DNA of 64,000 nt from an uncultured Allomuricauda sp. (GTDB lineage: Bacteria > Bacteroidota > Bacteroidia > Flavobacteriales > Flavobacteriaceae), in NCBI RefSeq assembly GCF_947495325.1, contig NZ_CANLYK010000002.1:930001-994000 (forward strand), in the 5' to 3' direction. The translations under genes were made by a program, and so were the position numbers. The notes beneath the pieces were generated by a model. It was not told the DNA's origin, did no database searches, and was given only the letters and a program-made list of their open reading frames with translations. Shown here piece after piece: positions 17,183 to 24,537 of the stretch (the first letter of the stretch is position 1; each line of letters begins with the position of its first letter).

Positions 17183-18199
17183 ATGAAAGGATTAGGGCTC
17201 TTTTTTTTATGTCTACTCCAGATTTCGTGCAACAGCCAAAAGGCTGAAAAAATAAATGGGGTGAGCTTTGTTGGCTCACGAGAAGAGGTGACCCAGGCCC
17301 ATGTAGATCCCGTTTTGAATGTTGCGGCAAATTATGCTGCCGTAATGCCCTTCGGATTTGCTAGAACATTGAATTCGCCTAACGTTATTTTCAATACCGA
17401 TAGGCAATGGTATGGAGAAACTAGACGTGGTGCCAAACAATACATTGAACTTTTACAAAAGAATGGGGTTAAAATCATGTTGAAACCCCAAATTTGGATT
17501 TGGAAAGGAGAGTTTACCGGTGATATGACCATGGAATCTGAAGAAGATTGGAAAACTTTGGAGGAAACTTACAGTGATTTCATTTTAACCTACGCAAAAC
17601 TTGCGGAGGAAACCAAGGTCGATATCTATTGTATTGGCACTGAACTGGAGGAGTTTGTAAAGAACAGACCGCAGTATTGGCAAGATTTGGTAGATAAAGT
17701 GAGGAATGTTTTTAGCGGAAAGCTTACATATGCGGCAAATTGGGACGAATACACAAGAACCCCTTTTTGGGAAAAATTGGATTATATAGGGGTTGATGCC
17801 TATTTTCCTTTGTCTGAAGAAAGCCATCCATCCTTGGAGCAAATGAAGTTGGGTTGGCAGCCCTGGAAATCAAAGTTGTTGGCACTTTCTGAGGCTAAGG
17901 ACAAACCCATTCTTTTTACTGAGTTTGGCTACAGAAGTATGGATTATACGGCAAAAAAACCATGGCTGGTAGACCGTAATGAGATGGATGTAAATCTTGA
18001 AGCGCAAGCAAATGCAACACAAGCTATATTTGATGAATTTTGGAAAGAAAAATGGTTCGCGGGAGGCTTTGTTTGGAAGTGGTTTATACACCATACCAAG
18101 TCAGGAGGTGAAAAAGACAATAGGTTTACGCCCCAAAATAAGCCTGCAGAATCTATAATTCAAAAACATTTCGTAAGCTTTAAGTACCCTAAACCATAA
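17183..18199 (+). CDS. GH113-like (TIM-barrel) glycoside hydrolase, lipoprotein
   Basis: LLQISCNS lipobox; KPQIWIWKGEFTGD, CIGTELEEF, LFTEFGYRS candidate acid/base and nucleophile Glu; FVWKWF. Confidence 0.7.
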   Translation: MKGLGLFFLCLLQISCNSQKAEKINGVSFVGSREEVTQAHVDPVLNVAANYAAVMPFGFARTLNSPNVIFNTDRQWYGETRRGAKQYIELLQKNGVKIMLKPQIWIWKGEFTGDMTMESEEDWKTLEETYSDFILTYAKLAEETKVDIYCIGTELEEFVKNRPQYWQDLVDKVRNVFSGKLTYAANWDEYTRTPFWEKLDYIGVDAYFPLSEESHPSLEQMKLGWQPWKSKLLALSEAKDKPILFTEFGYRSMDYTAKKPWLVDRNEMDVNLEAQANATQAIFDEFWKEKWFAGGFVWKWFIHHTKSGGEKDNRFTPQNKPAESIIQKHFVSFKYPKP

Positions 18200-18214: not shown

Positions 18215-19480
18215 ATGATTCGCATTGCCCTTGCTTGTTTTCTTTCGGTACTATTGAGCAAAGCAGCGTACGGGCAAAACACGGTTGTTGATATCAAGGT
18301 TCAAGGAAATAAAAGGACCAAAACAAATTTCATAAAGAAAATCACCAAGCTAAAAGCGGGTATGGAATTGGATTCCGTCCTAATTGAAGAAGATATTTAT
18401 AGGCTAAAACGATTACCTTCTGTAACCCATGCTTACTTTCAGGTGTCTCCTTCAGTCGGAGAAGGGGAGTATACTGTCGTTTATGGAATTGAGGAAAACT
18501 TTACATTGATTCCGTTTGTAAATGTATACACCTCCAACAATGATGAGTTTGCGTTCAGGATTGGGTTGCAGGAATTTAATTTTTTGGGGAGCAATATTAC
18601 CCTTGGTGGATTTTACCAAAAGGACATTTTCAATTCCATCGGAGCCCAGATGAGAGCTCCATATCTATTTGGAAAGAAATTGGGGCTTGCCCTAAGTTAT
18701 CAAGATCTTACCACCCAAGAACCTGTTTTTCTTGACTCTGGAACGGCAGATTATAAATACAATAACGAATCCTTCGAGATCTTGGGGCTTTATGAAATAA
18801 ACTATAAACACAGATTTGAGCTCGGAATCAATTTTTTTACTGAAGATTATGAATATCTATTTGGAACTACTGATCCAAATGTTCCTCAATCGCTTAATGT
18901 AGATAAGTATCTGTATAAACTGATCTACAATTATGATGCAATTCAATATTATTATCAATATTTATCTGGATTTAAGAGTACGCTCAACTTTCAGTATGTA
19001 AATAGCTCAAATACTCAACTCCCGGAATTTTTAATTGGGTTTAATGATTTTGTGTACTATACAAGGATTAGTGAACGGGGAAACTGGGCAAGTAGACTGC
19101 GTTTGGGCCTTTCCAGTAATTTAGATACACCATTTGCTCCCTTTGCAGTAGACAATAATCTGAATATTAGAGGTGTGGGAAATACCATAGATCGAGGGAC
19201 CGGAGCTATTGTTTTTAATACCGAATACAGACACACCTTGATAGACAAAAATTGGTTTGTACTCCAGAGCAATATTTTTGTTGATGGTGGGACATGGCGA
19301 AACCCTGGGGGTGATTTTAGCGACTTTGGAGACGATCAAAATATAAGAATTTACCCAGGTGTGGGTTTGAGGTTGATTCACAAAAGGATTTTTAATGCTA
19401 TCTTTAGAATTGACTATGGACATGGCATTACCAATGATGCATCAAAAGGAATAGTTTTTGGTATAGGACAATATTTTTAA
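18215..19480 (+). CDS. short Omp85/BamA-family outer-membrane protein with a single recognisable POTRA
   Basis: VVDIKVQGNKRTKTNFIKKITKLKAGMELDSVLIEEDIYRLKRLPSVTHAYFQV (POTRA) then barrel with IRGVGN..DRGTGAIVFNTEYRH and C-terminal GIVFGIGQYF. Confidence 0.8.
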   Translation: MIRIALACFLSVLLSKAAYGQNTVVDIKVQGNKRTKTNFIKKITKLKAGMELDSVLIEEDIYRLKRLPSVTHAYFQVSPSVGEGEYTVVYGIEENFTLIPFVNVYTSNNDEFAFRIGLQEFNFLGSNITLGGFYQKDIFNSIGAQMRAPYLFGKKLGLALSYQDLTTQEPVFLDSGTADYKYNNESFEILGLYEINYKHRFELGINFFTEDYEYLFGTTDPNVPQSLNVDKYLYKLIYNYDAIQYYYQYLSGFKSTLNFQYVNSSNTQLPEFLIGFNDFVYYTRISERGNWASRLRLGLSSNLDTPFAPFAVDNNLNIRGVGNTIDRGTGAIVFNTEYRHTLIDKNWFVLQSNIFVDGGTWRNPGGDFSDFGDDQNIRIYPGVGLRLIHKRIFNAIFRIDYGHGITNDASKGIVFGIGQYF

Positions 19481-19557: not shown

Positions 19558-20490
19558 ATGAAATTAATACCAACCCTTTTGTTGTGGGTAGGCATGTCTA
19601 CCATGCTTCTTGCACAGGAAAATGAGCATAAGGTCATTGCAGAACAAGGAGATGGAATCTTTTCCATACTTAGAAAGCAAGGACTTGACCCTGCAAAGTA
19701 CTACGAAAAGTTTATCACCCTAAACATAGAAAACATCAAGGATGGCAGTATGCTTCATGTGGGTAGGGAATACATAATTCCAAAGGCCAAAGATTCATTC
19801 AAGGAAACCGGGGTTAGGGTACAAATGTCCAATGGAACTGTGAACCCTATTTTTGATGCTGAACTTGCTACTATGTCTCGCAAGAGCAATTCCCTCAAGA
19901 ATGCGGTTTATTATCTGATAGCTGAAAATAAGATTGAGGCGGAAAATAAATTTACAGACGATATTATAAAGAGTCTTGCAGCGGAGCTTATGGTGCATGG
20001 AGCCACGGTTTTTGTAATTGAAAGTGGTGATGAAAAAGTAGTAGAGGGAAAACCCCTGTCAGAGGTTGAAAAAATGGGCGCTTATGTTGAGACCATTAAT
20101 AAGCGCTACCTTCAAAACAATGGAAAATATCAAAGATTATTGATTATAAGAGCGAATGGATTGATTAAAAATGGTAATATGGATGTGGCGGTATACCATC
20201 ATAATAAAAGTGAAAAAGGACAGCGTTTCGCAGAGAATATCCAAAGTGTCTTCAAAAGAAACAGTATCTCAAACCGATCTTATAAAGACATAAACACAAT
20301 TTTTCAAGATAAGAACAGCTTATATTTGGCAAAGAACACATTGCCAGCCATTACTCTTTTAACGATTGATAGCGGTTCAAAAATTTCAAAAAAAGATGGG
20401 ATTCCTGTGCGTTCTGATAAAAAATCCTTTACCAATTGGGTTACAAGTGGTATTTTAAAGGATTATGCAGACCTTTCAATCGAAGAATAA
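19558..20490 (+). CDS. LysM + Amidase_3-like protein, predicted catalytically inactive (pseudo-amidase)
   Basis: Co-linear with the next gene (EQGDGIFSILRKQGLDPAKYYEKFI; NKRYLQNNGKYQRLLI; YHHNKSEKGQRFAENI; SLYLAKNTLPAI) but lacks HGGPDPGA, THVDS and IEIGN motifs. Confidence 0.75.
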   Translation: MKLIPTLLLWVGMSTMLLAQENEHKVIAEQGDGIFSILRKQGLDPAKYYEKFITLNIENIKDGSMLHVGREYIIPKAKDSFKETGVRVQMSNGTVNPIFDAELATMSRKSNSLKNAVYYLIAENKIEAENKFTDDIIKSLAAELMVHGATVFVIESGDEKVVEGKPLSEVEKMGAYVETINKRYLQNNGKYQRLLIIRANGLIKNGNMDVAVYHHNKSEKGQRFAENIQSVFKRNSISNRSYKDINTIFQDKNSLYLAKNTLPAITLLTIDSGSKISKKDGIPVRSDKKSFTNWVTSGILKDYADLSIEE

Positions 20491-21514
20491 TTTCACAAAC
20501 CATTTTATAGGCGCTTTTAGCCTAATTATTTTCTGTTGTAACACCAATATTATTGCCCAAGATTCTATCTTGAAAGTTGAGGCTATTGAAGGTGATGGGG
20601 TCTATTCGTTATTGAGAAGAAATGGGCTGGATCCGGTTGAGTACTATCAGTCCTTTATCAATATGAACAAAGAAAACTTGACAGAAGGTGATAAGCTTTT
20701 TGTGGGAAGTATGTATCAAATACCGGATACCATTGTACTTAAGGATAAAAAGATTAAAATTGAATCGATTCCCCGAACAGAATATCCCATTTTTGGAGCT
20801 GACTTTTCTGTTGTTGATTCGCTTAGCAATAGGTTAAAGAATACAGTGTATTACTTGATTTCTGGACATGGAGGCCCTGATCCCGGGGCAGTGGCCAATT
20901 ACAATGGTAAAATGATTGCGGAAGATGAATATGCCTACGATGTAACCTTGCGTTTGGCCCATGAACTTATATCCCATGGTGCCGAAGTTCATATTATAAT
21001 ACGCGATGAGAATGACGGAATTAGACAAGCACGAACCCTAGAGTTGGATACGGATGAGGTAGCCTACCCCAATAAGACAATTCCATTGGGACAATTAAAG
21101 CGTTTGGAACAACGGGTGAAAATTGTGAACGACCTATACTTGAAGAATACTGGAAAATATCAAAGACTAATTGTTACCCATGTAGATAGCCGGAGTAAAG
21201 GAACTAATATAGATGTATTCTTTTACCATCACCATAAAAGTAAAAACGGAAAACGCCTTGCTGAAAGTATTCATAAGACCTTTGAGAAAAAATACAAAGA
21301 ATTTCAACCCAACAGAAAATATACCGGCACCTTTATGGATAGAAGCAGTCTTTATTTGATTAAAAACACTTTACCAGCGATTGCCTATATAGAGATTGGA
21401 AATATTAAAAGTAAAAAAGACCAGCGTAGAATTTTAGACCCGGATAATCGGCAAGCTTTGGCAAAATGGATTTCCGAAGGCATTTTATTGGATTATGAGA
21501 CCAAATCCAATTAG
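20465..21514 (+). CDS. LysM + N-acetylmuramoyl-L-alanine amidase (Amidase_3), intact motifs
   Basis: EGDGVYSLLRRNGLDPVEYYQSFI (LysM-like), SGHGGPDPGAV, AEDEYAYDVTLRLA, VTHVDSRSKG, AIAYIEIGNI. Confidence 0.85.
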   Translation: MQTFQSKNNFTNHFIGAFSLIIFCCNTNIIAQDSILKVEAIEGDGVYSLLRRNGLDPVEYYQSFINMNKENLTEGDKLFVGSMYQIPDTIVLKDKKIKIESIPRTEYPIFGADFSVVDSLSNRLKNTVYYLISGHGGPDPGAVANYNGKMIAEDEYAYDVTLRLAHELISHGAEVHIIIRDENDGIRQARTLELDTDEVAYPNKTIPLGQLKRLEQRVKIVNDLYLKNTGKYQRLIVTHVDSRSKGTNIDVFFYHHHKSKNGKRLAESIHKTFEKKYKEFQPNRKYTGTFMDRSSLYLIKNTLPAIAYIEIGNIKSKKDQRRILDPDNRQALAKWISEGILLDYETKSN

Positions 21515-22215
21515 TTAAGAATGTTTTTTGAATAGTATTGGTAGAGTTCATCTGGCCCGGCACCTAAATAGTTTTTTAGATGAATCATACCAAAATGGTA
21601 CTGAACCTTAAACCACCCTTTCTCCCGGTACTTTCGTGCAGAGGTAATCACATAGTCTGGAAGAACTTTGAATTTTGTATGCTGGTATAATCTTCGAATG
21701 AATTCGGTGTCCTCATAAATTAAGTACCCTTCATTGAAACCCTTGTTCTTCTCAAAAAGTTCTTTTTTTATAAAAAGCGATTGATCTCCTCCTCTACATA
21801 AGCTGTGGTTTATTCTTGAAAGCCAGGCAAAAAAACGCAAAATAGGGTTATTGGTATCAAACCTCATTCTAAAACATCCAGATTCATATCCCTGAGCAAC
21901 CGATTCTAAAATCATTTGATCAAATCCTTTAGGGGGAAGGGTATCTGCATGCAGAAAATAGAGAAGATCTCCACTAGCATGTCTTGCTCCCGTATTCATC
22001 TGTCTGGCCCTGCCTTTTTTTGACTGTATTACTTCAGCTTTATGTGCTGTTGCAATTACAACAGTTTTATCCATACTGCCACCATCAATACAAATGATTT
22101 CTTGAATTGAACTTGAAACACTGTTATTGTTTATATGGGAAAGTAGGTCCCCAATACAATTTTCCTCATTTAAGACCGGAATAAGGATGCTTATTTTTAA
22201 TTTATTCTGACTCAT
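21511..22215 (-). CDS. TIGR04283-type (arsenosugar biosynthesis-associated) GT2 glycosyltransferase
   Basis: ISILIPVLNEENCIGDLL, IDGGSMDKT, SKKGRARQMNTGARHASGDLLYFLHADTLPP, GGDQSLFI. Confidence 0.87.
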   Translation of the reverse strand: MSQNKLKISILIPVLNEENCIGDLLSHINNNSVSSSIQEIICIDGGSMDKTVVIATAHKAEVIQSKKGRARQMNTGARHASGDLLYFLHADTLPPKGFDQMILESVAQGYESGCFRMRFDTNNPILRFFAWLSRINHSLCRGGDQSLFIKKELFEKNKGFNEGYLIYEDTEFIRRLYQHTKFKVLPDYVITSARKYREKGWFKVQYHFGMIHLKNYLGAGPDELYQYYSKNILN

Positions 22216-22981
22216 TTAATCTCCAATCATACTCCAAATATTCTATTTTGGCATTTTTAGAAACTGGATTATCCAAATACATATTGATATATTCCAAGAG
22301 TGAAGTTTGCTCGGTGAAATCACTTTTATACCATTTAAATATTCTGGAAAGTTCTGCTTTGTTTTTTTGAAATCGATTCTGTTTTTTATCATTTATGAAA
22401 TCGACAGTTGCCTTGGAAAGCAACCGTTCCATGTTTTTGGAAGTAAAAGCCGTATTGAGCAGTTTTGGACATGAATATGATGCGCAATTTATAGCAAAGT
22501 GAATTCGAGGTTCGTTCATTTTACGCAGAACCTCATGCTCAATATCATTCAAGGAGGTTACATTTTTCCCAATTGAAATCCATTTTTTCTTCCATCGGTT
22601 TGGAATATCCTTTATGCTTTTTGTTGGATAATTGTCCACGATCAATTTAACCGTGGCGGCATTGTATAGATTGATATAAAAAGCCATTTTTTCATTGTTG
22701 TCCCAAGAATCTTTAGGTGAATTTTCAGAAAGATGATTCAGGTACTCTTGTAAGGAGTCACTATCATTATTAAAACCCAAATAGTTCACATTACCTTCAC
22801 TGTCCACATGTTTTTTGAGCAAATCATTCCATGGTGTATGATCGGGTATGGAATTTTGTGGTTTTAAAACTTCAGTCTGGGCCGCATTTACTGTTTTATC
22901 TCCTTTTTTTTCATCAGGATTTACATTTCCATTACAGGTGGCTAGTAGTGTTCCAAAAAAGAAATACAGGATAAAATTCAT
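22202..22981 (-). CDS. DUF547 domain-containing lipoprotein (copy 2)
   Basis: FYINLYNAATVKLIVDNYP, SLNDIEHEVLR, IHFAINCASYSCPKL, IFKWYKSDF. Confidence 0.88.
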   Translation of the reverse strand: MNFILYFFFGTLLATCNGNVNPDEKKGDKTVNAAQTEVLKPQNSIPDHTPWNDLLKKHVDSEGNVNYLGFNNDSDSLQEYLNHLSENSPKDSWDNNEKMAFYINLYNAATVKLIVDNYPTKSIKDIPNRWKKKWISIGKNVTSLNDIEHEVLRKMNEPRIHFAINCASYSCPKLLNTAFTSKNMERLLSKATVDFINDKKQNRFQKNKAELSRIFKWYKSDFTEQTSLLEYINMYLDNPVSKNAKIEYLEYDWRLNESE

Positions 22982-23101
22982 AAATAGGTAAAATAGAAGC
23001 TAATTATATTACTGGTATAACAGTCATAAAAACGACGCTAACCTTTCAAAGCCTGAAATTTTTTTTGGCAAAAAAGTGCTATGGAAAATTTTGGTTGTAG
23101 T

Positions 23102-23917
23102 TTAAATAACCTTGATTAGTTCTTTAAACAATTGTATCATTTTTGGCTCGGTGTTGCCTGCAATTTCAATAATTTCCTGAATATTAACAGGTTGCAGGTT
23201 GTCAGGGTCACATTCATCTGTTAAGACCGAAACTGCCAAGATTGGGAGTCGTAAATGATTGGCAACAATAACTTCAGGAACGGTGCTCATACCCACAGCA
23301 TCTGCCCCTAAAATTTTTAACATTCGGTACTCCGCTTTCGTTTCCAGTTGTGGTCCAACAACCGAGACATACACACCTTTTTGTAATGAGATGTCCTCTT
23401 TTTGGGCAATAGCTTCAATTTTGGTGCGCATATCCAAATCATAGGGTTCACTCATATCCGCAAAACGATCTCCAAATTCAGCAACATTTTTAAAAGCCAA
23501 AGGCGACCCCCCTTGCAGATTGATATGATCTTCAATAAGCATAATATCCCCTTTTTTATAGCTGAGGTTAATAGCGCCCGCGGCATTGGAGACAAATAGT
23601 TTTTTAATTCCCAATTGGTGCATTACCCTTATGGGATAGGTTATATCCAAAAAGTCGTACCCTTCGTACAGATGAAATCGCCCTTGCATAACTACCACCT
23701 TCTTACCGGCAATGGTTCCATAAATTAGTTTCCCGGTATGAAACTCCACCGTTGCTAAGGGAAAGTAGGGAATATGATTGTAGTGCGCTTCAATAGGGTC
23801 CTGAATCTCATCGACCAGTTGCCCTAATCCAGTACCCAAAACAATCCCAATTTCAGGATTGTCAAACCCTTTCTTTTTTAAGTAATCTACAGATTCGTCA
23901 AGTTGTTTTTTGGTCAT
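23102..23917 (-). CDS. purine-nucleoside phosphorylase
   Basis: IGIVLGTGLGQLVDEI, GKKVVVMQGRFHLYEGY, VSNAAGAIN, GPQLETKAEYRMLKILGADAVGMSTVPEVIVA. Confidence 0.95.
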   Translation of the reverse strand: MTKKQLDESVDYLKKKGFDNPEIGIVLGTGLGQLVDEIQDPIEAHYNHIPYFPLATVEFHTGKLIYGTIAGKKVVVMQGRFHLYEGYDFLDITYPIRVMHQLGIKKLFVSNAAGAINLSYKKGDIMLIEDHINLQGGSPLAFKNVAEFGDRFADMSEPYDLDMRTKIEAIAQKEDISLQKGVYVSVVGPQLETKAEYRMLKILGADAVGMSTVPEVIVANHLRLPILAVSVLTDECDPDNLQPVNIQEIIEIAGNTEPKMIQLFKELIKVI

Positions 23918-24537
23918 TCTTTTATATGTTTTAAGTAGGGACTGAAAGCTTTGATTTCCTTAATGTCCTCATAGTGGTCAATATCATTTTTTAGAGGAAG
24001 TTCAAAAAGATTTTCTCCTTTCAAATTATCCAATGTTGAAGGTAGTACAGCTTCTGTCCCCCATAACTTATCTTGAAAAAGTTCTTCTTTTAAGGATGTC
24101 ATTCCCAAGAGGTAATAACCACCATCTTCAGCTGGGCCAAGAACATAATCATGGTTGTCTAGCTTTAAAAAAGCAGTTTCCAAATCTCTTTGGGATAAAT
24201 CGTACATATCACTGCCAATAATAATGATTTTTTCATAACCAGATTTAAAACCATCTTGAAAAGCATCTAGCATGCGCAATCCTAAATCTCCGCCTTTTTG
24301 GAGTTTTTTTTGATAAATAGTATTGCCCCAAATATCAGTATCCCAAACTTCCTCAGAATAGTATAAACGTTTTTGAACGTTAAGGTTTTGGGTTATGGAA
24401 ACCGTATGTTTCAATAAAAATATATAGATTTTCAATGCAGCCTCATCACCAATTTTAGAAGCCAATCTAGTCTTACATTTTCCCAGTTCTGGATTTCTTG
24501 TAAATATTATTAGGAGTAGGTTCTTTTTTGCGTTCAA
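23914..24537 (-). CDS. TIGR04282-type (arsenosugar biosynthesis-associated) glycosyltransferase
   Basis: IIFTRNPELGKCKTRLASKIGDEAAL, QKGGDLGLRMLDAF, IIIGSDMYDLS, LGPAEDGGYYLLGM. Confidence 0.9.
   Translation of the reverse strand: MNAKKNLLLIIFTRNPELGKCKTRLASKIGDEAALKIYIFLLKHTVSITQNLNVQKRLYYSEEVWDTDIWGNTIYQKKLQKGGDLGLRMLDAFQDGFKSGYEKIIIIGSDMYDLSQRDLETAFLKLDNHDYVLGPAEDGGYYLLGMTSLKEELFQDKLWGTEAVLPSTLDNLKGENLFELPLKNDIDHYEDIKEIKAFSPYLKHIKE

Follow-up and report, generated by a model that had tools for sequence, protein, structure and literature searches.

Architecture of the tandem amidase locus

The window, the whole 64,000-nucleotide stretch of DNA analysed here, encodes two adjacent, co-directional proteins that combine a LysM-like domain with an Amidase_3 fold. 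The upstream gene (U; 19558..20490, + strand) encodes a pseudo-amidase of 310 aa with a signal-like N-terminus, a LysM-like domain that is the most conserved part of the protein (~residues 23-76; 19624..19785, + strand), and a degenerate Amidase_3-fold domain (~residues 114-305; 19897..20472, + strand) that has lost its catalytic site. The downstream gene (D; 20465..21514, + strand) encodes an enzyme of 349 aa with intact H135, E153, H239, and E310. The original prediction described two co-linear open reading frames overlapping by 26 nt; these positions are confirmed, and the two proteins align over their whole length with 39% identity.

The chromosomal slot occupied by these genes is syntenic. 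Upstream lies a GH113 glycoside hydrolase (17183..18199, + strand), with or without a gene for a short BamA-like POTRA/barrel protein (18215..19480, + strand), while a convergent TIGR04283 glycosyltransferase (21511..22215, − strand) lies downstream in most genomes. Between these markers the slot contains D alone, U and D, U alone, or nothing, and U-only genomes, where examined, carry U in this same slot. The BamA-like protein of the window contains one POTRA domain and a barrel in 421 aa. The downstream glycosyltransferase belongs to a conserved convergent cluster (21511-24537, − strand) in which TIGR04283 and TIGR04282 “arsenosugar biosynthesis” glycosyltransferases flank a DUF547-like gene and a purine nucleoside phosphorylase-like gene, both named from sequence only.

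The Pfam domain Amidase_3 (PF01520) is readily detected in D (E = 1.7e-20) and matches U below the curated cut-off (E = 9.4e-5). An AlphaFold2 model of U, built from a 10-row alignment (mean pLDDT 66), predicts a β-α-α-β unit at residues 23-75 followed by an α/β domain, and Foldseek searches with this model return the Amidase_3 enzymes CwlD, LytH, CwlV, and AmiA as best matches. The model of D is of lower confidence (pLDDT 57), yet retrieves the same family. Together with the 39% identity to D, these results place U within the Amidase_3 fold. The “LysM” label of the original prediction stands only in part: the predicted β-α-α-β topology fits, but Pfam LysM matches are sub-threshold (best E = 0.0035, four of eight members), so that the sequence evidence is no more than suggestive and we refer to the domain as LysM-like. 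In the PDB, the profile hits best (E = 0.02) to a cell wall-binding protein, in which the GD-hS motif is found two times. The N-terminus of U, which starts MKLIPTLLLWVGMSTMLLAQ, reads as a signal peptide and speaks against a cytoplasmic location; U is apparently secreted.

The catalytic site is lost throughout the U family

Conservation of the active site was surveyed across 62 U and 58 D sequences, all distinct. The four residues required of an active Amidase_3 enzyme, namely two zinc-binding histidines (H135 and H239, D numbering), a zinc-binding glutamate (E153), and a catalytic glutamate (E310), are invariant in 58 of 58 D sequences, while a complete site is found in none of the 62 U orthologues. 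The original prediction read the D signatures as kept and the corresponding U motifs as absent or replaced, and the alignment bears this out motif by motif: the GHGGPDPGA loop is deleted in the U protein of the window, H239 of D (THVDS) aligns with R198 of U, and E310 of D (IEIGN) aligns with T269 of U. The predicted loss of two zinc-binding histidines and the catalytic glutamate is not due to chance, because it recurs throughout the 62 distinct orthologues. The column of the GHGG histidine is a gap in 56 of them and a histidine in only one, L035; this protein comes from outside the genus (marine Flagellimonas-type bacteria) and lacks the surrounding GGPDPG motif. The H239 column contains arginine in 51 sequences and never histidine, and the E310 column contains threonine in 46 and glutamate in three (L034, L035, and L037, all outside the genus).

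Two further differences had been overlooked. The third zinc ligand, Glu153 of the AEDEY motif, is not conserved in U, where the column contains aspartate in 22 sequences and glutamate in 13, the remainder having a different residue or a gap. In addition, U lacks a second segment of D, some 15 residues long; this conserved segment (~residues 182-198 of D, DENDGIRQARTLELDTDE; 21008-21058) is possibly an active-site or autoinhibitory loop. Displacement of the catalytic residues to other positions was rejected, as U contains no second conserved histidine: only H214 is conserved in ≥80% of U sequences, and D shares this residue. A relocated zinc site in U thus appears unlikely from the alignment.

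U is maintained by purifying selection

Reading frames are open in all 62 distinct U orthologues, none of which is broken by frameshifts or premature stops. Among 22 genome pairs with dS < 1.5 (NG86 method), the median dN/dS is 0.078 for U and 0.037 for D, with a non-synonymous rate about 1.9 times faster in U. The four closest pairs of U-only genomes give U dN/dS values of 0.036-0.104, indicating that U is still constrained in species that carry no D. U is under purifying selection, as expected from the original prediction of a non-catalytic pseudo-amidase maintained by selection. The disappearance of its catalytic residues and its faster evolution relative to D would fit a U that is merely a pseudogene in decay, or an artefact of annotation; this reading is extremely improbable, however, and is refuted by the intact frames that persist in 62 distinct orthologues from many species (a diverse set of which shows 32-67% identity to U) and by a dN/dS of ~0.08 rather than near 1.

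Constraint is distributed differently along the two proteins. Mean pairwise identity across the 32 genomes of the genus carrying both genes is lower for U than for D in the amidase domain (0.598 vs. 0.857), a difference seen in 15 of 16 disjoint pairs (p = 0.0005). The LysM-like domain shows the opposite tendency (0.725 for U vs. 0.674 for D; higher in U in 12 of 16 disjoint pairs), which is not significant alone (p = 0.08), and so does the linker (0.655 vs. 0.530), likewise not significant alone (p = 0.45). It is safe to state that U has lost constraint in the amidase domain and kept it in the LysM-like domain.

Distribution of U and D

Match tables show a full-length U in 70 and D in 33 of the 73 genomes from the genus; 38 of these genomes contain U without D. 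D never occurs without U within the genus, save for one genome (G014) in which D lies beside a contig edge that shows only the end of U, but this rule says little, given that almost every genome there has U. Among sampled genomes outside the genus, eight contain U, of which three lack D (G113, G144, and G180) and five carry both genes. Conversely, 20 loci from other genera encode D with no U beside it, and searches of these 20 loci with U and D profiles revealed no hidden U gene. When the U profile was run over 298 genomes of the order, U-level scores were obtained only in G000, G068, G190, and G180, with the other matches (217-280 bits) falling in the D range. Canonical Amidase_3 enzymes, by comparison, were recovered from all 31 genomes searched.

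One good-quality assembly within the genus (G003) encodes neither U nor D. Its slot is intact and empty, with the POTRA gene ending 4 bases before the convergent glycosyltransferase, which rules out an assembly gap; U is therefore not strictly indispensable. The BamA-like gene of this genome is split into two open reading frames (L135, 5114-6382), through either decay or sequencing error.

In a phylogenetic tree, one branch (SH-aLRT 100) separates all U sequences from all D sequences. This topology fits one old duplication and one loss of catalysis, which would suffice to explain both families, although several outlying U sequences are long-branched, making the branching order within U, and a sister rather than nested position of U relative to D, unsure. 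Mapping D presence onto the U tree, taken as a stand-in for the species tree, requires 11 changes, of which at least eight are forced by well-supported branches. In one genome of another genus (G212, locus L032), D groups within the D clade of Flagellimonas, whereas U lies on a long branch outside that genus, a discordance that reflects either transfer of D or a tree artefact.

Possible functions of U

These results establish a conserved, non-catalytic, and separately maintained amidase paralogue, and U is very probably a functional pseudo-amidase that acts independently of D. The original prediction assigned U a non-catalytic role in the service of the active copy; selection on U and its inactive site uphold the first part, the tie to D is not supported, and a general role in binding peptidoglycan or in regulating other hydrolases could still apply. 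A dedicated activator or chaperone of D, expressed with it from one operon and following EnvC-like logic, would explain why the genes are tandem, co-directional, and overlapping, and why D in the genus accompanies U. The co-occurrence with an adjacent target amidase expected of an EnvC-like factor is not observed, since U persists without D in the 38 genomes of the genus and in three of eight U genomes elsewhere, remains constrained in U-only species, and is missing from the 20 D-only loci. U is thus not an obligate partner of D, and we consider an activator role highly doubtful.

Two other readings dispense with a strict partnership with D. U might act as a decoy or shield, its LysM-like domain and dead fold occupying peptidoglycan and competitively guarding it from D, AmiC-type, or foreign amidases, which would be consistent with retention of both domains, continued constraint on the LysM-like domain, and deletion of the active-site loops. 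This reading is rather unlikely: the 100 columns not conserved in U include many D-invariant residues, the active-site side among them, making stem-peptide binding by the old groove doubtful. Alternatively, U might serve as a structural tether without a role in hydrolysis, anchored through its LysM-like domain and binding an outer-membrane or periplasmic protein through its second domain. Constraint on the LysM-like domain and linker, and the short BamA-like protein that U often adjoins, speak for a tether, but the BamA-like gene sits beside U in only part of the genus and is gone from that place in a large remainder, so that the adjacency is not a fixed partnership. A specific pairing of U with this neighbour was accordingly rejected, and a tether in general also appears unlikely.

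Our best reading from sequence and predicted structure is that U is a periplasmic, LysM-anchored protein that would bind peptidoglycan and modulate other hydrolases or shield the wall from them. Tandem duplication of an ancestral D-type enzyme with LysM-like and Amidase_3 domains probably took place in an ancestor shared by Flagellimonas and certain related genera of Flavobacteriaceae, after which the upstream copy would have lost the GHGG loop, the second zinc-binding histidine, and the catalytic glutamate and become neofunctionalised as the non-catalytic U. U would be exported to the periplasm, as its signal-like N-terminus suggests, where its LysM-like domain may bind peptidoglycan glycan and its dead amidase fold may modulate cell-wall hydrolases in trans, serving as a module for docking or for covering the substrate. 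Such modulation in trans is plausible, if somewhat short of probable. Its targets would most plausibly be canonical Amidase_3 enzymes, plus D where present, with either activation or protection as the outcome. More tentatively, this secreted, LysM-anchored dead amidase could regulate or guard cell-wall hydrolysis in Flavobacteriaceae on a genus-wide scale, and could thereby have made its active parent dispensable and open to repeated loss. The retention of a dead enzyme copy while its active parent is missing from the same locus, apparently through many losses, represents a well-replicated natural case. Because U-only, U+D, D-only, and empty-slot genomes all occur in nature, a pseudo-hydrolase can here be tested for its function in the absence of the parent enzyme.

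Comparison with known systems

No prior description of the U family was found in the open-access literature by literal text match. The sister, or parent, family comprises the D-type LysM-like Amidase_3 enzymes of Flavobacteriaceae, which share the architecture and slot of U and differ in keeping their catalytic residues intact in all 58 sequences. The closest precedent for a regulatory pseudo-amidase is CwlM of mycobacteria, an Amidase_3 homologue that activates MurA (PMC4946905), and U likewise has lost its zinc ligands. CwlM resides in the cytoplasm, has no classical secretion signal, and activates MurA when phosphorylated, PknB being the kinase (PMC4946905), whereas U combines a LysM-like domain with an N-terminus that resembles a signal peptide and is encoded at a locus common to its active parent.

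The solved structures closest to D and U are those of the partner-dependent amidases CwlD-GerS and LytH-ActH (PDB 7rag, 7tj4). CwlD-GerS illustrates that an Amidase_3 enzyme can depend on a partner (PMC8496864), but the partner in these complexes is a different kind of protein rather than a dead amidase copy. EnvC, NlpD, and DipM are degenerate LytM factors in which a dead hydrolase domain controls hydrolases (PMC10336132, PMC10268282). They resemble U in containing a catalytically dead cell-wall hydrolase domain, with a control role only proposed for U, and differ in that their fold is that of a LytM endopeptidase while the dead domain of U is the amidase fold itself. If U indeed acts as a regulator or guard, its part towards canonical amidases would match that of degenerate LytM factors in Proteobacteria, and Bacteroidota could have a form of amidase control that relies on a dead amidase instead of a dead LytM domain.
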